DNA of 64,000 nt from Tritonibacter multivorans (lineage in GTDB: Bacteria; Pseudomonadota; Alphaproteobacteria; Rhodobacterales; Rhodobacteraceae). Below the pieces are notes generated by a model. That model was not told the DNA's origin. It was given only the letters and a program-made list of their open reading frames with translations, and ran no database searches. Every line of letters starts with the position of its first letter. The first letter of the stretch is position 1. This document shows, one piece after another, positions 7,585 to 63,264 of this stretch. The stretch covers positions 62,001-126,000 of the forward strand of contig NZ_CYSD01000014.1 of NCBI RefSeq assembly GCF_001458415.1, read 5' to 3'. Position numbers and translations under genes: made by a program.

Positions 7585-8403
7585 ATGGGCTTTCCCGGGA
7601 CTTGGATGACGGAGAGCGAAAGCGTGGTGTATCGGGTTGTGCCCAAATGCGCCTGTTCGACGATCGGTCAGATCATGTTCTATTCCGACCATGGTCGCTT
7701 CTTTGACGGTGACATCCACGACAGCACCGATGGGCTGCACAAATGGTCGCAGGAACATTCCAAGCCGCTGATTCAGAACAATGTCTCAGCCCATAAATCC
7801 TATGCGTTCACCTGTGTGCGCAACCCGTACACGCGGATCCTCAGTTCCTTCTTTGACAAGATCTGCGGCATTCAGCGCAATGGCCGCCGCTATCGCGGCA
7901 ATCTGGTGCCCAAGCTGACCTATGAATACGGGATCGAGGTCGGCGGCGATGATGGCCAGCAGGAATTTGACCAGATCAAAAGCTTCCGCCGTTTCCTGCT
8001 CTTTGCGCGCGACACCATCCGCTATCGCCGCCCGATGGACCCGGACATTCACTGGTCGGCGTCGTCCGGCCATGTGTCGACCTTTATCTGCAACGGCGGG
8101 ACCTACAACAAGATCGTCTGGACCGAGAAATTCAACGACGGCATGCAGGATGTGATCGATGCAATCGAGACCCCGCATAAGGTCGACCTGAGCGCGATCC
8201 CGCGCTTCAACGAAAGCGAAGGTCACGGACCCAAACGTGCCCATCCGGTCGAGGATTACTTCGACGATCTGTCGATGCATCTGGTTTACGAGATCTACAA
8301 ACGCGATTTCGAGGTCTTCAAGTACGACTTTGAAAACCCGGGCAACAAGATGCCCATCTCAGAGATCGACCTCGACGAGGTGCACGCCAAGCTTGGCGAG
8401 TAA
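7585..8403 (+). CDS. Carbohydrate sulfotransferase family 2 protein
   Basis: A 272-aa sulfotransferase that would move sulfate from PAPS to a glycan hydroxyl. The 5'-phosphosulfate-binding loop is near the N-terminus (VPKCACST, residues 19-26), where families of this type have a K-x-A-S/C-T-T pattern. The 3'-phosphate-binding segment is probably VRNPYTRILSSFFDK (about 79-93). There is no signal peptide or membrane anchor, unlike eukaryotic homologues. ATG 7585 is preceded by AAGAGG. It is divergently paired with the GT14/DUF5928 gene, so it probably decorates the same polymer. A bidirectional terminator separates it from ilvD. Confidence 0.83.
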   Translation: MGFPGTWMTESESVVYRVVPKCACSTIGQIMFYSDHGRFFDGDIHDSTDGLHKWSQEHSKPLIQNNVSAHKSYAFTCVRNPYTRILSSFFDKICGIQRNGRRYRGNLVPKLTYEYGIEVGGDDGQQEFDQIKSFRRFLLFARDTIRYRRPMDPDIHWSASSGHVSTFICNGGTYNKIVWTEKFNDGMQDVIDAIETPHKVDLSAIPRFNESEGHGPKRAHPVEDYFDDLSMHLVYEIYKRDFEVFKYDFENPGNKMPISEIDLDEVHAKLGE

Positions 8404-51916: not shown

Positions 51917-52804
51917 TCAGCGTTTGCCGTAATAGAGACCGACCACATGCTCGGCCTCGGCAAAGAACAGCCAGCGGCAGCAGAAGACGCCCGCGATGTG
52001 CGACACCACCGCCAGTCCCGCCAGCGTGTGTTTCAGCGCAAGGCCCGAGACCGGCAGCAGCAGGAACAAGAGCGGCAGCACAAAGGCGAGCGAGACCCCG
52101 ATCACTCGCAGCTTGAGGCTGTGTTTGCGGCCCACCACATGCACAAATTCCCGAAGCAGGTAATTGCTGCCGGTGTGCGGCGGTTCAAACGCGCGCACCG
52201 CGCCACGGTCGCCCAACCCGGTGGCGGAGCCAATGTCACTGCCCGCCGTGGCAAACGCCCGGTCGCCGCGCTGCCAATAGGCCAGCGCCACGGCGCCTGC
52301 GATCAGCAGCAGCCACGTGGCCAGCGTTTCCTGACCGGCCAGCAGCGCACCGCCTGCCAGCGCGAATGTCAGGAACTTCACCGGCACCAGCGCCATGTTC
52401 CAGCGCGGAATGGTCTTCAGCTGCGCATAGATCATCGAGGTGGTGAACACGGTTGTCAGCGACAGCATAGCGCCAATGCCGCCCAGAAACTGCCAGTCGG
52501 CGGCATAAAAAATGCGCCCAATCGCATAAAGACCCATGATCAAGAGGGCGGCCACGGCCGCGCAGCCTTCGCGGCTCAGCCAGCTGCTGCGCCACTGGGT
52601 GAACGCCTTCCATGCGCGTTCGGGATGCCCAAGGTGGAAGGTCGAGGCCAGAAGCCCGCCCACCGCCAGCGCGTAAGCCAAGGCAAAGAACACAAACGCC
52701 ACCCCGCCCGTGGCACCGGGCATGCCGAGGCCGAGGAAAAACAACAGCCCAAAGCCAAGGCCCGAGAGCGTGGTGAAAACAATAACTGAAGGGGCTGGAT
52801 GCAT
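51917..52804 (-). CDS. soeC: Sulfite dehydrogenase membrane anchor (DmsC/NrfD-type)
   Basis: A 295-aa inner-membrane subunit with about eight helices and histidines in the DmsC-like positions. It anchors the molybdenum and iron-sulfur subunits and passes electrons to the quinone pool. The sequence LGMPGATGGVAFVFFALAYALAVGGLLAS and WRSSWLSREG fit the DmsC family. Its start overlaps the soeB stop by one base. In the SoeABC system it lets sulfite be oxidised on the cytoplasmic face. The name relies on its soeAB neighbours and the xsc context. Confidence 0.88.
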   Translation of the reverse strand: MHPAPSVIVFTTLSGLGFGLLFFLGLGMPGATGGVAFVFFALAYALAVGGLLASTFHLGHPERAWKAFTQWRSSWLSREGCAAVAALLIMGLYAIGRIFYAADWQFLGGIGAMLSLTTVFTTSMIYAQLKTIPRWNMALVPVKFLTFALAGGALLAGQETLATWLLLIAGAVALAYWQRGDRAFATAGSDIGSATGLGDRGAVRAFEPPHTGSNYLLREFVHVVGRKHSLKLRVIGVSLAFVLPLLFLLLPVSGLALKHTLAGLAVVSHIAGVFCCRWLFFAEAEHVVGLYYGKR

Positions 52805-53595
52805 CAGTTCGATCCTCCAGAAGAATTTCCGGGTAGGGCGTCGAGCGCCTTGTCGAGCCAGCCAAGGAAGCCTTTGGGTTCTTCGGCGACGGGGGCGAGC
52901 AGGGGGGCAAGCACGTCGATGTCGCCCAGCTGATCCTTGGGGCGGGGCGGCAGGTATTTGTTCACGGGCCGCGTGCCCTGTTCCGGCATCAGATCCATGC
53001 CACCCCGTTCGGCCACGAGTTTGGAGACATCCGAAGTCGGGTCGCCAAGGTCGCCAAAGTGGCGCGCGCCTGCAGGACAGGTGCGCACGCAGGAGGGTAC
53101 GCGGTCCTCTTCGGGGAGGTTTTCATTGTAGATCCGGTCAACGCAGAGGGTGCATTTCTTCATCACCCCTTCGGCCAGATCAAGCTCGCGCGCACCATAG
53201 GGGCAGGACCATGCACAGAGGCCACAGCCGATGCAGTCGCTCTCGTTCACCAGAACAATGCCGTCCTCGACCCTTTTGTAGCTGGCGCCTGTCGGGCAGA
53301 CGGTCACGCAGGGCGCGTCCTCGCAGTGGAGGCAGGATTTTGGGAAATGCACCAGCTGCGCTGTGGGGCTGGGCTGGGCGCTGCAGGGGGCGGGCTGGAC
53401 CTCGAAGGAATGCACGCGGTTCAGGAAGGTGCCGGAGGGGTCGGCGCCATAGGGGTCCTGATCGCTGAGCGGCGCGCCATAGTTTTCGGTGTTCCAACCT
53501 TTGCAGGAGATCACACAGGCATGGCAGCCGACACAGGTGTCGAGGTCAATGACGAGACCGAGTTTGCGGTCGGTGGTTGTGGGCAGGTCGGTCAT
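52804..53595 (-). CDS. soeB: Sulfite dehydrogenase iron-sulfur subunit
   Basis: A 263-aa DmsB-like protein with four [4Fe-4S] sites: CVGCHACVISC, CLHCEDAPCVTVC, CIGCGLCAWSC, and CTLC with CVRTC. It carries electrons from SoeA to SoeC. I chose ATG 53595, nine bases after AGGAGG; a longer start would run back into soeA. An 88-base spacer containing a GC hairpin separates it from soeA. No Tat leader is present, fitting a cytoplasmic location. Confidence 0.9.
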   Translation of the reverse strand: MTDLPTTTDRKLGLVIDLDTCVGCHACVISCKGWNTENYGAPLSDQDPYGADPSGTFLNRVHSFEVQPAPCSAQPSPTAQLVHFPKSCLHCEDAPCVTVCPTGASYKRVEDGIVLVNESDCIGCGLCAWSCPYGARELDLAEGVMKKCTLCVDRIYNENLPEEDRVPSCVRTCPAGARHFGDLGDPTSDVSKLVAERGGMDLMPEQGTRPVNKYLPPRPKDQLGDIDVLAPLLAPVAEEPKGFLGWLDKALDALPGNSSGGSN

Positions 53596-53683
53596 TGGGT
53601 CTGGCCTCCTGACGTGTGGCGGATGTTGCGGCGGGGCGCTGCCCCGCACCCCGGAGTATTTTGGGCCAAAAGAAGGATCTGGG

Positions 53684-56506
53684 TCATTTTCCAACCTTCC
53701 ATGTGAGCGCGTCGGGGGCGGTGGGGACAGGCGATTTTAGCGGGTCGAGGGCCGGTTGGCTCTGCTCCAGATCGTCTGGCGGGGCGGCTTTTTCGATTTT
53801 GACCTTGAGGTCGAACCACGCGGCCTGACCGGTGATCGGGTCGGAGTTTGCCCATCGCAGCCCGTCGCCTTTGGGCGGCAGAAGTTCGTGGATCAGGTGG
53901 TTCAGCAGGAACCCTTTGGTGGCCTCGGGCGCGTCTTCGTCCAGCGCCCAGGCGCCTTTGCGTTTGCCGATCGCGTTCCAGGTCCAGACGGTGTTGTCGT
54001 TGAGTGCGGCCATCTCCATCACCGGGACGGTGATTTCGCCGTGGGGCGAGGTGACGCGGGCCCAGTCGCCGTCGCTGAGGCCATTATCGCGCATCAGTTT
54101 TGTCGGCACGTACAAGGGGTTGCGCCCATGGATCTGCCGCAGCCAGGCGTTCTGGCTGCCCCAGCTGTGATACATGGCCATGGGCCGTTGGGTCAGCGCG
54201 TTGACGGTGAAGCCTTCGTTGCCCTGCTGGTCGGTCTCGTACCAGATTGGCAGCGGCGTCATGGTGTCTTTGATCCGCTGGCGCAGGTGTTCGGGCGGTT
54301 GGCGGTCGCCGTGGCCTTCGGCGGCCAGTTGGAACTTGCGCATGGGTTCGCAGTAGAGCTGGAACAGATAGGGTTGCGGGCTGTCGAACAGGCCCAGATC
54401 CACCGCCCAATCCTGATAGGCGCGGTTCCAGGGTTTGTAATAGGCGCCTTCCTCGGGCACATGGGTCAGGAAGAAGCCGCCATTGTCGATGTACTTGTTG
54501 AGCTGATCGGGGTTCACTGCGCCGCGGCCTACCTTGTCGCCGTCCTCACCCCGGAAGCCCGCCAGCGGGCCAATGCCCGGTTTGCGTTCGTGGTTGACGA
54601 TATAGTCAGCGTAGTCTTTCCACTTGGCGCTGCCGTCCTCATGGGTGAAGCCCGGCAGCTTCATCTTATTGGCAAGCTGCACCAGCACCGACTGGAAGCC
54701 GCGCACGTCACGGTCGGGTTCGACCACCGGCCAGCGGATTGCGTCTGCGGCGCCATCAGCCTCGCAGATCGGGCGGTCAAGGAGCGAGATACAGTCGTGG
54801 CGTTCGAGGTAGGTGGTGTCCGGCAGGATCAGGTCGGCATAGGCCACCATTTCGGAGCTATAGGCGTCGGAGTAGATGATCCGGGGGATCACATATTCCC
54901 CGTCCTCATCCTTGTCGGTCAGCATCTCGATCACGCCGCGCGTGTTCATCGAGGAGTTCCACGACATATTCGCCATATACATAAACAGCGTGTCGATCTT
55001 GTAGGGATCACCGGCGTGGGCGTTGGAGATCACCATATGCATCAGCCCGTGGCTGGACATGGGGTTTTCCCAAGTGAACGCCTTGTCGATGCGGGCAGGG
55101 CTGCCGTCCGTTTTCAGGGCCAGATGTTCGGGGCCGTGGACGAACCCCAGATGCGGCCCGTCGAGCGGTTTGTTGGGGGTGACGCGGCAGTGGGGCGCGG
55201 GGTGGGCCTCGGGCGGTTTGGGGTAGGGCGGTTTGAAGCGGAAGCCACCGGGGACCTCGACCGTGCCGAGGATGATCTGCAGCACATGCAGCGCGCGGCA
55301 GGTTTGGAAGCCATTCGCGTGCGCCGAAACCCCGCGCATGGCGTGCATGGACACGGGCCGGCCGACCATGGATTTATGCACGTCGCCGCGGAAATCGGTC
55401 CATTGCTGATCAAGCTCAAACGCCTCTTCAAACGCGACGCGGGCCAGCTCAGCCGCGATGGCGCGGATGCGGGGGGCGGGGATGCCGCAGCGGTCGGCCA
55501 CGGCTTCGGGGGCGTGCGCGTCCTTCAGGTATTCTTCCGCCATCAGCTGGAAGACCGAGACATGGGTCACGTCGCCCATCTGGAAGGACCCGCCGAGATC
55601 CGGGCGCACGCCTTTCATGTCAAAGGGCGCGAGCTTGCCGGTGGTGCGGTTGATCACCAAGGGCGCACCGGTGTCGTCGCGCAGGAACAACCCGTAATCG
55701 GGGCTTTCCGGGTCCCGGTTCACCAGCACCGGCGCATTGGTGAAGCGCGAGAGATATTCGAGGTCGATTTTCCCCGCCTTCATCAGGCAGTGGATCAGCG
55801 ACAGGATGAACAGACCATCGGTGCCCGGCGTAATGCCGACCCAGTCATCAGCCACCGCGTTATAGCCAGAGCGGATCGGGTTGACGCCAATGACGCGTGC
55901 GCCGCGGGCTTTGATCTTGCCAATGCCCATTTTGATCGGGTTGCTGTCATGGTCTTCGGCGACGCCAAACAGCATGAACAGCTTGGTGTGGTCCCAGTCG
56001 GGCTGGCCGAACTCCCAGAAGGCGCCGCCCATCGTGTAGATGCCGGCGGTTGCCATGTTCACCGAACAGAACCCGCCATGGGCGGCGTAGTTGCAGGTGC
56101 CAAAGTTCTGCGCCCAGAAGCTGGTGAAAGACTGTGATTGGTCACGGCCGGTAAAGAACGCCAGCTTTTCGGGATTGTCCTTGCGGATGGGCTCCAGCCA
56201 GCCGGCGGCGATGTCCAGCGCCTCGTCCCAAGAGATCTCCTCGAACTCTCCGGACCCGCGCGGGCCGACCCGTTTCAGGGGCGCGCGCAGGCGAGAGGGC
56301 GCATTGTGTTGCATGATCCCGGCGGATCCTTTTGCACACAAGACGCCCTTGTTTACGGGATGGTCGCGGTTGCCCTCAATGTAGGCAACCTTGCCGTCCT
56401 TCATATGAACATTGATACCGCATCGGCAGGCACACATGTAACAGGTGGTCTGTCGGATTTCGTCCGAGACCTTGGGGGATGTTTCCACCCGTGGCTGTGT
56501 TGTCAT
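53684..56506 (-). CDS. soeA: Sulfite dehydrogenase molybdopterin subunit
   Basis: A 940-aa DMSO-reductase-family molybdoenzyme. The N-terminal [4Fe-4S] site is C22-x2-C25-x3-C29-x27-C57, followed by the bis-MGD domains (GVLCAKGSAG, GVSAHANG, SWNSSMNTRG). There is no twin-arginine leader, so it works in the cytoplasm, as reported for SoeA. Placed with soeBC behind xsc and two exporters, it most likely oxidises sulfite to sulfate. Related enzymes reduce polysulfide or thiosulfate, but context favours sulfite. Confidence 0.9.
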   Translation of the reverse strand: MTTQPRVETSPKVSDEIRQTTCYMCACRCGINVHMKDGKVAYIEGNRDHPVNKGVLCAKGSAGIMQHNAPSRLRAPLKRVGPRGSGEFEEISWDEALDIAAGWLEPIRKDNPEKLAFFTGRDQSQSFTSFWAQNFGTCNYAAHGGFCSVNMATAGIYTMGGAFWEFGQPDWDHTKLFMLFGVAEDHDSNPIKMGIGKIKARGARVIGVNPIRSGYNAVADDWVGITPGTDGLFILSLIHCLMKAGKIDLEYLSRFTNAPVLVNRDPESPDYGLFLRDDTGAPLVINRTTGKLAPFDMKGVRPDLGGSFQMGDVTHVSVFQLMAEEYLKDAHAPEAVADRCGIPAPRIRAIAAELARVAFEEAFELDQQWTDFRGDVHKSMVGRPVSMHAMRGVSAHANGFQTCRALHVLQIILGTVEVPGGFRFKPPYPKPPEAHPAPHCRVTPNKPLDGPHLGFVHGPEHLALKTDGSPARIDKAFTWENPMSSHGLMHMVISNAHAGDPYKIDTLFMYMANMSWNSSMNTRGVIEMLTDKDEDGEYVIPRIIYSDAYSSEMVAYADLILPDTTYLERHDCISLLDRPICEADGAADAIRWPVVEPDRDVRGFQSVLVQLANKMKLPGFTHEDGSAKWKDYADYIVNHERKPGIGPLAGFRGEDGDKVGRGAVNPDQLNKYIDNGGFFLTHVPEEGAYYKPWNRAYQDWAVDLGLFDSPQPYLFQLYCEPMRKFQLAAEGHGDRQPPEHLRQRIKDTMTPLPIWYETDQQGNEGFTVNALTQRPMAMYHSWGSQNAWLRQIHGRNPLYVPTKLMRDNGLSDGDWARVTSPHGEITVPVMEMAALNDNTVWTWNAIGKRKGAWALDEDAPEATKGFLLNHLIHELLPPKGDGLRWANSDPITGQAAWFDLKVKIEKAAPPDDLEQSQPALDPLKSPVPTAPDALTWKVGK

Positions 56507-57702: not shown

Positions 57703-58884
57703 CTATCCCGGAGGGACCTTTTGCTTGGGGTCGAAAGCGAAGGTTTGCAGTCTTTTCGCGGCATCCAGCGCGATCTGGCGTTCTTCGTCTGCGGGGATAA
57801 TCCAGGCGGCCACGCGGCTTTTGGGGTGGTGCAATTGTGTGGCCTTGGCGGTGTTTGCCTCTGAATCGGGGCGCAGGCCAAGGAAGGACAGCCCGCCCAG
57901 GATTGCGCCGCGCACATAGGCGTCGTTTTCGCCAATGCCGCCGGTGAACACCACCGCGTCCACCCCCCCCATTGCGGCCACCAGACTGCCTGCGTGGCGC
58001 ACCGCCCAGTGGCAGAAATGGTCGATGGCAAACTGTGCCTCAGCCGTGCCGGCCTGTCCCAGCGCGCGCATGTCCGAGAGGCCACCGGACAGGCCCTTGA
58101 GGCCGCTTTGGTTGTTCAGAAGGGTGCGGGTGGCGTCGATGCCGTCTTCTTCGGCCAGACGCAGCACGGCGTTGGCGTCAATCTGGCCCGCGCGGGTGCC
58201 CATGGTCAGCCCTTCCAGCGGCGAATAGCCCATGGTGGTGGCCACGGATCTGCCGTTCAGGATCGCGCAGGCCGAGGCGCCATTGCCAAGGTGGAACGCC
58301 AGCACGCGGGCGGGCAGATTGGTGCCAGTCACGTCCGCCCAACGGCGCATGAGGGCGGCATAAGAGGTGCCATGAAACCCATAGCGGCGGATGCCGCGGG
58401 CGGTCACTTCGGCCGGGACCGCGTAGGTCGTGGCGATATCCGGGTTGGTGGCGTGAAAGGCGGTGTCAAAGCTCGCGAATTGCGCAAGGCCGGGCGCGTG
58501 GCGGCTGATCGCATCAATGCCCGACAGCGCATGCGGGTTGTGCAAAGGTGCGAGTGGCACGGCGGCTTCGATCTGGGCGCGCACATCGGGTGTGATCTCG
58601 CAGGCCTCTTTCAGTGTCGCGCCGCCATGCACCACCCGGTGGGCGGCGGCGGCGAGCTGGTCGCGGTCTATGCCTGCCTCGGCCAGCGCGTCCAGCACCG
58701 CCTCCAAGGCGGTGGCATGGTCGGGCAGCGGGCGGGTGATGTCGTGATCGCCACAGGTCAGCCGGCCTGCATCGGTGCCAATGCCTTCGGCCTGACCGTG
58801 CAGGATCTCGGTCAGGGCGGCATCAAAGACGGCAAATTTCACCGAGGAAGAGCCGGTGTTCAGAACCAGAATGTTTTGGGGCAT
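57703..58884 (-). CDS. ackA: Acetate kinase
   Basis: It converts acetyl phosphate + ADP to acetate + ATP. The 393-aa protein has LNTGSSSVKF (residues 7-16), RVVHGG near 85, and HLGNGASACAI with GRSVATTMGYSPLEGLTMGTR. It overlaps the tauE/safE stop by one base, so it is part of the xsc transcript. In most described xsc clusters phosphate acetyltransferase (pta) takes this place and makes acetyl-CoA; AckA instead gives ATP directly and leaves acetate. Confidence 0.95.
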   Translation of the reverse strand: MPQNILVLNTGSSSVKFAVFDAALTEILHGQAEGIGTDAGRLTCGDHDITRPLPDHATALEAVLDALAEAGIDRDQLAAAAHRVVHGGATLKEACEITPDVRAQIEAAVPLAPLHNPHALSGIDAISRHAPGLAQFASFDTAFHATNPDIATTYAVPAEVTARGIRRYGFHGTSYAALMRRWADVTGTNLPARVLAFHLGNGASACAILNGRSVATTMGYSPLEGLTMGTRAGQIDANAVLRLAEEDGIDATRTLLNNQSGLKGLSGGLSDMRALGQAGTAEAQFAIDHFCHWAVRHAGSLVAAMGGVDAVVFTGGIGENDAYVRGAILGGLSFLGLRPDSEANTAKATQLHHPKSRVAAWIIPADEERQIALDAAKRLQTFAFDPKQKVPPG

Positions 58885-59644: not shown

Positions 59645-61423
59645 TCAGTCGACCTGCTGGGGACGCATGTCTTCGGCCGAGATGCCAGCAACCGCAACCG
59701 GCTGCTTCATCGCGTCACGGCGGAAGGGTTCGCCCAGTTCCTGGTTGATCATGGCTTCAATCAGGGTGGTGATGCCGTTCTTCTGGTCTTCGACCGCCTG
59801 ATGCAGCGCCGAGGTCAGCTCGTCCATGGTGCGGGCGACAACGCCCTTCAGGCCACAGGCGTTTGCGATGCCCGCATAAGACACCTGCTGGTCGAGTTCG
59901 GTGCCGACGAAGTTGTCGTTGAACCACAGGGTGGAGTTCCGCTTTTCCGCGCCCCACTGATAGTTGCGGAAGACAACCTGCGTCACTGCGGGCCATTCGT
60001 TGCGACCGATGGCGGTCAGTTCGTTCACGGCGATACCAAAGGCACCGTCGCCCGCGAAACCAACAACCGGCACATCGGGGCAGCCGATCTTGGCGCCCAT
60101 GACCGCAGGCAGACCGTAGCCGCAGGGGCCGAACAGGCCGGGGGCGAGGTATTTGCGGCCCTCGTCAAAATCCGGGTAGGCGTTGCCGATGGCGCAGTTG
60201 TTGCCGATGTCCGAAGAGATGATCGCTTCGCGCGGCAGGGCGGATTGGATCGCGCGCCAGGCCATACGGGGGGACATCCAGTCGGGTTTGTCGGCACGGG
60301 CGCGCTGGTTCCAGGTTGTGCCCGGATCGTCGTCCTCGTGGTCCATCGACGCGAGCTGCTGGGCCCAGCGGGATTTCTCTTCGGCGATTTTCGCTTTGCG
60401 TGCTTCGCGGCCTTCGTCACCAGCGGTGTCCGCAAGCTGCGACAGGATCGAGGTGGCGACTTTGGCGGCGTCGCCGACGATGCCAACCGTGACCTTCTTG
60501 GTCAGGCCAATGCGGTCAGGGTTGATGTCGACCTGAATGATCTTGGCGTCTGCGGGCCAGTACTCCATGCCGTAGCCGGGCAGGGTGGAGAAGGGGTTCA
60601 GACGGGTGCCAAGGCAAAGAACAACGTCCGCCTGCTTGATCAGCTCCATACCGGCCTTGGAGCCGTTGTAGCCCAGGGGGCCTGCAAACAGCGGGTGGTT
60701 GCCGGGGAAGGCGTCATTGTGCTGGTAGCCGACGCAGACCGGCGCATCGAGGCGTTCAGCCAGCGCTTTGGACGCGGCGATGCCACCTTTGGACAGGACC
60801 ACGCCTGCGCCGTTCAGGATCACCGGGTTCTTGGCGTCGGACAACAGGGCTGCGGCTTCGGCCAGGGCGGTTTCGCCACCGGAGGGACGTTCGAATTCCA
60901 CGATCGCGGGCAGTTCCACGTCGATCACCTGAGTCCACATGTCACGCGGGATGTTCAGCTGGGCCGGCGCAGAGGCGCGTTTGGCCTGCATGATCACGCG
61001 GTTCAGAACCTCGCAGACGCGGGAAGGGTCGCGGACCTCTTCCTGGTAGGCAACCATGTCCTCAAACAGTTTCATCTGTTCAACTTCCTGGAAGCCACCC
61101 TGACCGATGGTCTTGTTCGCGGCCTGCGGGGTGACCAGCAGCAGCGGGGTGTGGTTCCAGTAGGCGGTTTTCACGGCGGTCACAAAGTTGGTGATGCCGG
61201 GGCCGTTCTGCGCGATCATCATCGACATTTTGCCGGTGGCACGGGTGTAGCCATCGGCCATCATGCCGGCAGAGCCTTCGTGGGCGCAGTCCCAGAAGGT
61301 GATACCTGCCTTGGGGAACAGGTCCGAGATCGGCATCATGGCAGAGCCGATAATCCCAAAGGCATGTTCAATGCCATGCATCTGCAGCGTTTTCACAAAG
61401 GCTTCTTCGGTGGTCATCCGCAT
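59645..61423 (-). CDS. xsc: Sulfoacetaldehyde acetyltransferase
   Basis: Xsc is a ThDP enzyme that desulfonates sulfoacetaldehyde with phosphate to acetyl phosphate + sulfite. The 592-aa protein has the catalytic Glu in CAHEGSAG (E49), the ThDP motif starting GDGAFG (458-463) and ending near RN, and the Xsc-typical stretch NYQWGAEKRNSTLW (487-500). I start at ATG 61423, behind AGGAGAAG. Upstream lie two CTGGC-type direct repeats, probable TauR sites. It heads the xsc-tauE-ackA unit. Confidence 0.96.
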   Translation of the reverse strand: MRMTTEEAFVKTLQMHGIEHAFGIIGSAMMPISDLFPKAGITFWDCAHEGSAGMMADGYTRATGKMSMMIAQNGPGITNFVTAVKTAYWNHTPLLLVTPQAANKTIGQGGFQEVEQMKLFEDMVAYQEEVRDPSRVCEVLNRVIMQAKRASAPAQLNIPRDMWTQVIDVELPAIVEFERPSGGETALAEAAALLSDAKNPVILNGAGVVLSKGGIAASKALAERLDAPVCVGYQHNDAFPGNHPLFAGPLGYNGSKAGMELIKQADVVLCLGTRLNPFSTLPGYGMEYWPADAKIIQVDINPDRIGLTKKVTVGIVGDAAKVATSILSQLADTAGDEGREARKAKIAEEKSRWAQQLASMDHEDDDPGTTWNQRARADKPDWMSPRMAWRAIQSALPREAIISSDIGNNCAIGNAYPDFDEGRKYLAPGLFGPCGYGLPAVMGAKIGCPDVPVVGFAGDGAFGIAVNELTAIGRNEWPAVTQVVFRNYQWGAEKRNSTLWFNDNFVGTELDQQVSYAGIANACGLKGVVARTMDELTSALHQAVEDQKNGITTLIEAMINQELGEPFRRDAMKQPVAVAGISAEDMRPQQVD

Positions 61424-61562
61424 TGGGCTTCTCCTAGTCGTGTGCCGCTGAGGGGGCGGCGTTATGTGTCTGTTTCCCCGAGCCACGCGTTTTCATCGGG
61501 TTCACCGATATGAAGAAACGCCGCAGCTTTTCATCAGCATTAGGGACAGGCAGGGGTGTGGG

Positions 61563-61594
61563 TTAGGGCCAGATCTGGCTCTGCATATAGCCAG
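61563..61594 (-). promoter_or_regulatory. Probable TauR direct repeats upstream of xsc
   Basis: Reading the minus strand, CTGGCTATAT (61594-61585) and CTGGCCCTAA (61572-61563) are direct repeats with starts 22 bp apart, about 140-170 bases upstream of xsc. Phase and core match the pair upstream of tauR and the CTGGAC-type TauR site I recall from Rhodobacter. Confidence 0.6.
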
Positions 61595-61617: not shown

Positions 61618-63105
61618 TTAGTCGCCTGCGTCGCGCAAAGCTTCCGCAAGCAGTGCAATTCCCGCAGGAATCCGGCTTGCAGGGATCGAGGAATAGCCCA
61701 AGCGGTAGTAATGCAGCGGCTGATGCGGGGCAGAGAAAAAGGGCGCGCCGGGTTCAATAAACACGCCTTTGCTGCGCAAAGATCGGGCAACTGGACCCAT
61801 ATCGAGGTGCGCAGGCCCCTCCATCCACAGCGACGAGCCACCGCTGGCGCCATGTTTGCCGAGTCGCACCTTGGTCAGCCCGTGTTTGGCAATGGCGTCT
61901 TCCAGAACTTCGCGGCGTTCCTGCAGGACGCGCGCGGTGCGGCGAATCTGGGCGTCGTAGTGCCCAAGCGACAGGAAATAGGCGACGGTGCGCTGAATAT
62001 GGCCCGGCGGGTGGCGCAGCACATTGGCCCGCAGGGCGCGCGCCTGACGAATAAACGCCTCGGACCCCACCAAATAGCCCAGCCGCAGACCCGGAAACAG
62101 CGATTTGGAGAAACTGCCGAGGTAGATCACCCGCCCATCCGCATCGATCGATTTCAGCGCCGGCGAGGGGGCCGCGCCAAAGGACATCTCGAATTCATAG
62201 TCATCTTCGACCACCACCGCGCCAATATCCCGTGCGCGCGCCAGCAGCGCCTTGCGCCGCGCCATCGGCATGGTCACAGTGGTCGGGCTCTGGTGGCTGG
62301 GGGTGGTGAAGATCACATCGGTGTCGTCGCCGATCTGGTCGGGGGGCAGGCCCGCATCATCGACGGGGATAATATCCAGCTTGCAGCGGCGATGGGCCAG
62401 CTGATCGCGCAGGGTATAGTAACAGGGGTCCTCAATCGCAGCCTTGCGGTTGCGGTTCAGCAGCAGTTCCGAGGTCAGCCACAGCGCGTTCTGCGCCCCA
62501 AGGGTGATCAGGATCTCTTCGGGGCGGGCAAGGATGCCGCGCCGGGGCAGGGTATGGCGCGAGATATATTCGAGCAGAAGCGGGTCGTCCTGATCGAAGT
62601 AATCGCCGGTCATGGCGGCAAAGTCTTTTTGCCCCAATGCCCGCAGCGCACAAAGCCGCCAGTTGGCGTGGTCAAACAGGGTCTCGTCCGCCTGCCCATA
62701 GATGAACGGATAGCGATAGCTGCGCCAGTCCTGCGGCTTGCGGGGGGTATCCCCGCCAGTAAAGCTGCGGGTCAGATGGCGCTGCCAGTCCAGCTGGTCG
62801 GCGCTGTCGCGCAGATGCTGGGGCGCGGGCGCATAGCTGGGCGGCACCGGCGCGCTGTCCGAGACAAAATACCCCGACCGGCCGCGCGCAGACAGATAGT
62901 CGTTGGCCACCAGTTCCGTATAGGCGAGCGTCACCGTAATCCGACTGACCCCAAGGTGTTTGGCCAGCTTGCGCGAGGAGGGCAGCTTGTCGCCCACCCC
63001 AAAGCGGCCCGACAGAATACCGGCGGCGATCAGCTCTTGGATCTGCGCTTGCAGGGTGCCTTGGGCTTCGGGGTTCAGGAAGAAGGTGTCAACGGAAAGG
63101 GCCAT
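61618..63105 (-). CDS. tauR: MocR-type taurine regulator TauR
   Basis: A 495-aa GntR/aminotransferase fusion. Residues about 10-80 are the winged helix (DKLPSSRKLAKHLGVSRITVTLAYTELVANDYL). Residues 120-495 form a fold-I aminotransferase-like sensor with the PLP Lys K334 in SFSKSLFPGLRLGY and PLP-contact D301/D302. TauR activates taurine genes in the presence of taurine and PLP in Rhodobacter. Here it lies upstream of xsc on the same strand, 194 bases apart, rather than divergent from transport genes. The effector may be taurine or another C2 amine sulfonate. Confidence 0.9.
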   Translation of the reverse strand: MALSVDTFFLNPEAQGTLQAQIQELIAAGILSGRFGVGDKLPSSRKLAKHLGVSRITVTLAYTELVANDYLSARGRSGYFVSDSAPVPPSYAPAPQHLRDSADQLDWQRHLTRSFTGGDTPRKPQDWRSYRYPFIYGQADETLFDHANWRLCALRALGQKDFAAMTGDYFDQDDPLLLEYISRHTLPRRGILARPEEILITLGAQNALWLTSELLLNRNRKAAIEDPCYYTLRDQLAHRRCKLDIIPVDDAGLPPDQIGDDTDVIFTTPSHQSPTTVTMPMARRKALLARARDIGAVVVEDDYEFEMSFGAAPSPALKSIDADGRVIYLGSFSKSLFPGLRLGYLVGSEAFIRQARALRANVLRHPPGHIQRTVAYFLSLGHYDAQIRRTARVLQERREVLEDAIAKHGLTKVRLGKHGASGGSSLWMEGPAHLDMGPVARSLRSKGVFIEPGAPFFSAPHQPLHYYRLGYSSIPASRIPAGIALLAEALRDAGD

Positions 63106-63120: not shown

Positions 63121-63150
63121 CTGGACTTATGTTGGGGGCAATCTGGACTG
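63121..63150 (+). promoter_or_regulatory. Probable TauR direct repeats between tauR and arsR
   Basis: CTGGACTTAT (63121-63130) and CTGGACTGTG (63143-63152) are direct repeats with starts 22 bp apart. They begin 16 bases from the tauR start codon, suggesting autoregulation. They point toward the arsR-type gene, the orientation a divergent activated gene would have. Confidence 0.65.
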
Positions 63151-63264
63151 TGGCTTGATTTGGCATTTTTATCCGGATCTGCTGTGCAATCGGGCGGCTG
63201 TGGCGGCTTGCAACCCGGCCCCTTGTATTGGGGGCGTCTTGAGGGCTTGGCGCGCCGTTCAAAT

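Follow-up and report, generated by a model that had tools for sequence, protein, structure and literature searches.

A probable acetate kinase exit for acetyl phosphate in the xsc cluster of Tritonibacter multivorans, and its counterparts in the Rhodobacteraceae

A stretch of 64,000 nucleotides from Tritonibacter multivorans (contig NZ_CYSD01000014.1, positions 62,001 to 126,000 of the forward strand; hereafter the window) carries a gene for sulfoacetaldehyde acetyltransferase, xsc, together with an acetate kinase gene, ackA, in the place that the initial annotation described as usually held by a phosphotransacetylase gene, pta. This raises the questions of where the acetyl phosphate predicted to be formed by Xsc would go, and of how common an ackA in this position is within the family. 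The ackA gene (57703-58884, minus strand) is intact and encodes 393 aa, and its product exceeds the cut-offs of TIGR00016 (326 bits against 293.4, over positions 4-402 of 405) and PF00871 (339.6 bits against 22). Solved acetate kinases align with residues 4-377, and the stretches NTGSSSVKF, HRVVHGG, PLAPLHNP, FDTAFH, GFHGTS, GTRAG and DEER, which we take to be active-site stretches, match those of the two best-matching solved enzymes. By profile, by full-length coverage and by these stretches, the product is a predicted acetate kinase. A genome profile search found a single copy of ackA, carrying no PduL fusion.

All genes of the cluster lie on the minus strand, in the order regulator, xsc, tauE, ackA, yeiH and soeABC-like genes. 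The product of xsc (59645-61423, 592 aa, with the longest open frame reaching 61486) is over the cut-offs of TIGR03457 and NF005713, and 5 bases separate the gene from that of a tauE/safE-type exporter (PF01925; 58884-59639, 251 aa). The overlap of ackA with tauE/safE that had been read from the sequence is confirmed and amounts to one base, common to the tauE/safE stop codon (58886-58884) and the ackA start codon (58884-58882). After a gap of 137 bases ackA is followed by a gene for a putative sulfate exporter of the YeiH family (PF03601; 56528-57565), whose match to TIGR00698 stands at 135 bits, below the cut-off of 232.6. Beyond it lie genes for a soeA-like molybdopterin oxidoreductase (53684-56506), a soeB-like 4Fe-4S protein recognized by profile matches (52804-53694) and a soeC-like membrane anchor of the DmsC family recognized by a Pfam match (51917-52804), which reproduce the SoeABC-type order of molybdoprotein, Fe-S subunit and membrane anchor. 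None of the three products reaches an NCBIfam model cut-off, and the SoeABC name is given on the basis of an arrangement like that of Ruegeria pomeroyi.

The gene upstream of xsc (61618-63105, minus strand) encodes a regulator of the MocR/GntR-aminotransferase type that is probably TauR, a name taken from its position and from the boxes described below. Its best NCBIfam match is the PdxR model (327 bits against a cut-off of 320), so automatic annotation may label such a TauR-like protein PdxR. Pairs of the TauR 10-mer, given as CTGGACYTAA in passages of a published regulon study (PMC5320631), were sought on both strands of the whole window, allowing any spacing between 18 and 28. The best pair of the whole window is a direct repeat before xsc (61540-61572, minus strand; 3 mismatches in 20, 23-base phase), and two more pairs have 4 mismatches, one before the regulator gene (63121-63152) and one elsewhere in the window (8097-8127). 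Counted singly, boxes that deviate at no more than one base are at chance level (four in the window against 2.3 expected), so that it is the paired box alone that stands out. Of the 142 other xsc loci that we collected from the family, 139 were searched in the same way; a pair with at most 4 mismatches is present in 84 of these 139 upstream regions as against none of 139 equal-length control stretches taken inside xsc, and 73 of the 84 pairs have the 23-base phase seen in the window. We infer from this that the cluster is under TauR control, and the paired boxes and close spacing suggest that xsc, tauE and ackA may form one transcript, a weaker statement than that of the initial annotation, which had ackA clearly in the transcript of xsc. 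The stretch separating xsc from ackA contains a terminator-like hairpin, found by consensus match, which falls within the first part of tauE (59604-59574, minus strand), 40 bases past the xsc stop; it comprises 13 pairs, nine of them G-C, followed by the T-rich stretch CTTTTTCTGG. Terminator-like matches in the hairpin region are commoner than in shuffled sequences (24 vs 9.7), and among the 49 ackA-type loci only the window and one other were found to have a hairpin of this kind. The hairpin might reduce transcription continuing from xsc into ackA.

We consider it likely that the cluster serves the breakdown of C2 sulfonates under TauR control, by an Xsc-AckA-Acs route of the Roseovarius sp. 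217 type, a reading drawn from gene content, spacing, boxes, the failure to find a PTA_PTB-type pta and the presence of acs and ccr in the genome. The feeding compound would be a taurine-like C2 sulfonate. Under this scheme, Xsc would convert sulfoacetaldehyde to acetyl phosphate and sulfite, AckA would run in the direction that makes ATP and acetate from acetyl phosphate and ADP, and one of two acetyl-CoA synthetases (Acs) would probably convert the acetate to acetyl-CoA, which would enter the TCA cycle and the ethylmalonyl-CoA pathway. The sulfur product would be exported by TauE and YeiH and oxidized by the SoeABC-like complex.

A pta elsewhere in the genome could offer acetyl phosphate a different exit. 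The PF01515 search of the genome returned two matches, both malic enzymes bearing a PTA domain at the C terminus, and profiles of the classical pta and of two divergent kinds described below added no further match. No stand-alone PTA_PTB-family pta was thus found genome-wide, and the cluster has no co-directional pta beside xsc. For every one of the three pta kinds linked to xsc, a representative was recognized by PF01515, so that the negative carries weight within the PTA_PTB family, which is the scope of this profile; PduL-type transacylases (PF06130) belong outside it. The PTA domains of malic enzymes of the MaeB type apparently lack critical catalytic residues and act as acetyl-CoA sensors, according to passages of PMC7902834. 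In an alignment with three stand-alone Ptas, which keep the arginine of the S-R motif, the two T. multivorans copies read S-P and S-T. AckA-PduL fusions occur at five of 20 ackA loci of relatives that are not linked to xsc, and a PduL would escape PTA_PTB searches. It is conceivable on these grounds that a phosphotransacetylase is hidden in the genome, be it a stand-alone PduL or residual PTA activity of MaeB, and that AckA only sets the level of acetyl phosphate. We think this improbable, given that the single ackA of T. multivorans is unfused, that the MaeB domains appear to lack catalytic residues and that no PTAC-like sequence was found in sampled stretches of at most 186 kb (overlaps counted twice), a small part of the 4.17 Mb genome.

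Both genome searches proposed by the initial annotation, for pta and for acs, agreed with its prediction at the gene level, two malic-enzyme fusions being the sole PTA_PTB-type matches. Two acs genes are over the TIGR02188 cut-off (C12:274114-275982 and C42:247651-249525), and ccr, encoding the crotonyl-CoA carboxylase/reductase of the ethylmalonyl-CoA pathway of acetyl-CoA assimilation, is also present, so that acetate can be assimilated. The genes of an Xsc-AckA-Acs route are thus all found, xsc and ackA in one cluster and an acetate-CoA ligase gene in the genome. Since AckA makes ATP and acetate, the initial annotation had named dissimilation, overflow and reactivation by a separate Acs as possible outcomes; with two acs genes and no PTA_PTB-type pta, reactivation fits best at the level of genes. 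In the overflow alternative AckA would be a valve through which most of the acetate leaves, and the sulfonate would serve mainly as a source of ATP, sulfite electrons or nitrogen. AckA does yield acetate and ATP, and the SoeABC-like genes downstream in the same direction could let sulfite feed electrons to respiration, but the presence of acs and ccr counts against such a loss of carbon and we regard it as unlikely, if a little less so than a hidden phosphotransacetylase.

The energetics do not favour reactivation. By known reactions, Acs consumes two ATP equivalents and AckA returns one, and the route would therefore be dearer than Pta by about one equivalent; this extra cost and the hairpin between xsc and ackA both count against the AckA-Acs reading. 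A membrane H+-pyrophosphatase, which could recover part of the Acs cost, was not found in the genome. The gain from AckA may lie in draining acetyl phosphate without CoA or in allowing acetate release. Phosphoketolase, another source of acetyl phosphate, was likewise not found in the genome search, suggesting that Xsc may be the main source.

To place this cluster among its relatives, we surveyed the family with a single genome for each genus, 199 in all, using profile searches for xsc, ackA and pta. The survey yielded 143 xsc copies in 132 genomes, 129 of them over the cut-off and three (G053, G065 and G128) kept with a partial xsc; we excluded matches of up to 403 bits, which we took for other TPP enzymes, along with the second G128 fragment. 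Matches to ackA were obtained in 138 genomes, of which 136 were used, with G026 and G157 excluded for having weak matches alone. Three kinds of pta were distinguished: the classical PtaA; PtaB, which is short at about 285 aa; and PtaC, which resembles phosphate butyryltransferases as well as the PTA part of bifunctional enoyl-CoA hydratase/Pta. The pta matches first listed reached down to about 165 bits and did not include PtaC; PtaB and PtaC were recognized from their neighbourhoods and then given profiles of their own. No NCBIfam cut-off is reached by either, TIGR00651 ranking PtaB under its cut-off, so the phosphate acetyltransferase activity of both is assumed.

Within 6 kb of the 143 xsc copies we counted PtaA alone at 31, AckA alone at 23, AckA with PtaB at 20, PtaB alone at 17, PtaC alone at eight, AckA with PtaC at five, and PtaA with PtaB and AckA with PtaB and PtaC at one each, with none nearby at 37, a number that includes contig ends. 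The co-directional partner most often found with xsc in this sample is ackA, at 49 copies as against 32 for PtaA and 14 for PtaC. The statement that the position is usually held by pta therefore stands in part only: pta genes do occupy it in many relatives, but ackA is the commoner occupant. AckA is co-directional with xsc in all 49 copies and PtaB convergent in all 39, and AckA and PtaA are never found together (0 of 143 copies). Twenty-six of the 49 ackA-linked copies nevertheless have a divergent pta nearby, a co-directional PtaC in six and a convergent PtaB in 21 (one copy enters both counts), which indicates that in the majority of these relatives AckA is no plain replacement for Pta.

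The butyryltransferase-like PtaC stands directly before ackA in the xsc clusters L018, L019, L022, L027, L030 and L087. The existence of such PtaC and ackA pairs led us to drop the rule that pta and ackA never share a strand beside xsc. The gene for PtaB always faces xsc or ackA, and in 17 of 20 loci read a citrate synthase gene, recognized by eye, is near it; the two may form a conserved acetyl-CoA unit. PtaB also occurs in L049 and L050, where the stretch examined contains no xsc.

The recurrence of ackA also bears on its substrate. Acetate and propionate kinase families overlap, and the kinase could in principle act on another acyl phosphate, as a propionate kinase would, and lie beside xsc by chance. 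We give this very little credence, for ackA is within 6 kb of 49 of the 143 xsc copies, sharing their strand in every case, where a rough estimate predicts about 0.3, and the proteins concerned are related: in a tree of 69 AckA, 47 of the 49 xsc-linked proteins fall into one starred group together with three of 20 unlinked AckA, which were hand-picked from 101. Most xsc-linked AckA thus form one subfamily and are not random recruits. The two outside this Xsc-dedicated group, from L028 (G135) and L086 (G065), suggest a separate recruitment, and both come from genomes among the 14 ackA-linked ones described next. PtaC-ackA pairs of the Xsc-dedicated type are also seen in L190 (G043) and L191 (G017), in genomes without detected xsc.

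Fourteen of the 49 ackA-linked genomes, T. multivorans included, show no PTA_PTB-type pta in the profile searches; in the 13 others the absence is judged from the PtaA, PtaB and PtaC profiles, PF01515 having been run on T. multivorans alone. Among xsc genomes as a whole, ackA is present in all 17 without a PTA_PTB-type pta, compared with 82 of the 115 that have such a gene (Fisher p 0.007, relatedness not corrected), and all 17 have a strong Acs match, which is over the cut-off in 16. The count of 17 is weaker than it looks as evidence for genomes without any pta, since G030, which is among them, carries an AckA-PduL fusion. The 37 xsc-free genomes with ackA comprise 33 with a PTA_PTB-type pta and four, G033, G145, G178 and G187, that lack one and all carry an AckA-PduL fusion. 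The five fusions (PF06130; L172 in G178, L173 in G187, L174 in G033, L175 in G145 and L176 in G030) are 589-618 aa long in four cases, the frame of L175 being longer, and their PTAC domain was identified by Pfam scan in four and by tblastn in all five.

More tentatively, and at somewhat less than an even chance, we propose that xsc clusters in this family have an exchangeable slot for the enzyme that takes up acetyl phosphate, in which a largely Xsc-dedicated AckA group, PtaA, PtaB and PtaC substitute for or accompany each other, in many cases upstream of soeABC-like genes. AckA with a Pta would split the flux between ATP plus acetate and acetyl-CoA, and AckA alone would make acetate an obligatory intermediate. 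Among the 113 loci with at least 7 kb of downstream sequence, a soeA-like gene lies within 8 kb in 71 and was not found in 42, which counts against the slot. By slot type it follows AckA in 14 of 21, PtaA in 18 of 28, PtaC in six of eight, PtaB in 10 of 10, AckA with PtaB in five of nine, AckA with PtaC in four of five, the one locus with all three, and an empty slot in 13 of 31. The enzyme beside xsc thus changes while the frame often stays. On a quick tree of the 143 Xsc proteins, 29 changes are required to explain how the AckA label is distributed over the 106 copies that have a slot enzyme; starred branches force at least 13 of these. Also against the slot, the label is only weakly clustered (29 changes vs a shuffled mean of 35.2, with 10 of 500 shuffles as low). 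With 50 of 140 inner branches poorly supported, part of the slot switching is tree error, and paralogues, gene transfer and tree error inflate the change count.

What the survey adds is that ackA is the commonest co-directional partner of xsc, and that 14 genomes with this arrangement show no PTA_PTB-type alternative. For a lineage that includes many roseobacters, this points to a possible way of disposing of the carbon of taurine-like sulfonates, about one ATP equivalent dearer than Pta, in which acetate may be a free intermediate that could leak to neighbours.

The likely Xsc-AckA-Acs route has precedents. In Roseovarius sp. 217, known to us by the title of a paper of Baldock et al. from 2007, AckA and an acetate-activating ligase reportedly take part in taurine dissimilation, and the likeness to T. 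multivorans lies in this route through AckA and an acetate-CoA ligase. Roseovarius spongiae (L057) has the order regulator, xsc, ackA and soeABC with an unassigned stretch between xsc and ackA; T. multivorans differs in its YeiH gene between ackA and soeA. The classical xsc-pta operon of Cereibacter sphaeroides 2.4.1 has in common Xsc followed by a putative sulfate exporter, but holds pta in place of ackA, and its adjoining genes are read as those of a TauXY taurine dehydrogenase. No close TauY homologue was found in the T. multivorans genome, in which the best matches have 30 and 32% identity. In Ruegeria pomeroyi DSS-3, SPO3561 is presumably xsc. Its neighbours there, as given in passages of PMC4334477, are tauR (SPO3562), pta (SPO3560) and soeABC (SPO3559-3557), which is the same frame of tauR, acetyl phosphate enzyme and soeABC with the slot annotated as a phosphate acetyltransferase. 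In Rubellimicrobium mesophilum, xsc, pta and ackA have tags close together (rumeso_03970, 03968 and 03967) in passages of PMC4149006. A further comparison is with the TauR regulons of Suvorova & Rodionov 2016 (PMC5320631), passages of which list xsc, tauE, ackA and bisC/hybA/dmsC genes as TauR targets in Rhodobacterales, genes shared with the cluster here, name AckA plus acetate-CoA ligase as an alternative to Pta, and state that Pta and AckA never occur together in these regulons. Our family survey differs in the AckA loci with PtaB or PtaC neighbours; counted as neighbours of xsc and not as TauR regulon members, these suggest that the rule holds for classical pta in our sample and may not hold for the divergent kinds. 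Both the route and the arrangement are thus already in print, and the T. multivorans cluster represents a further case of a known arrangement.
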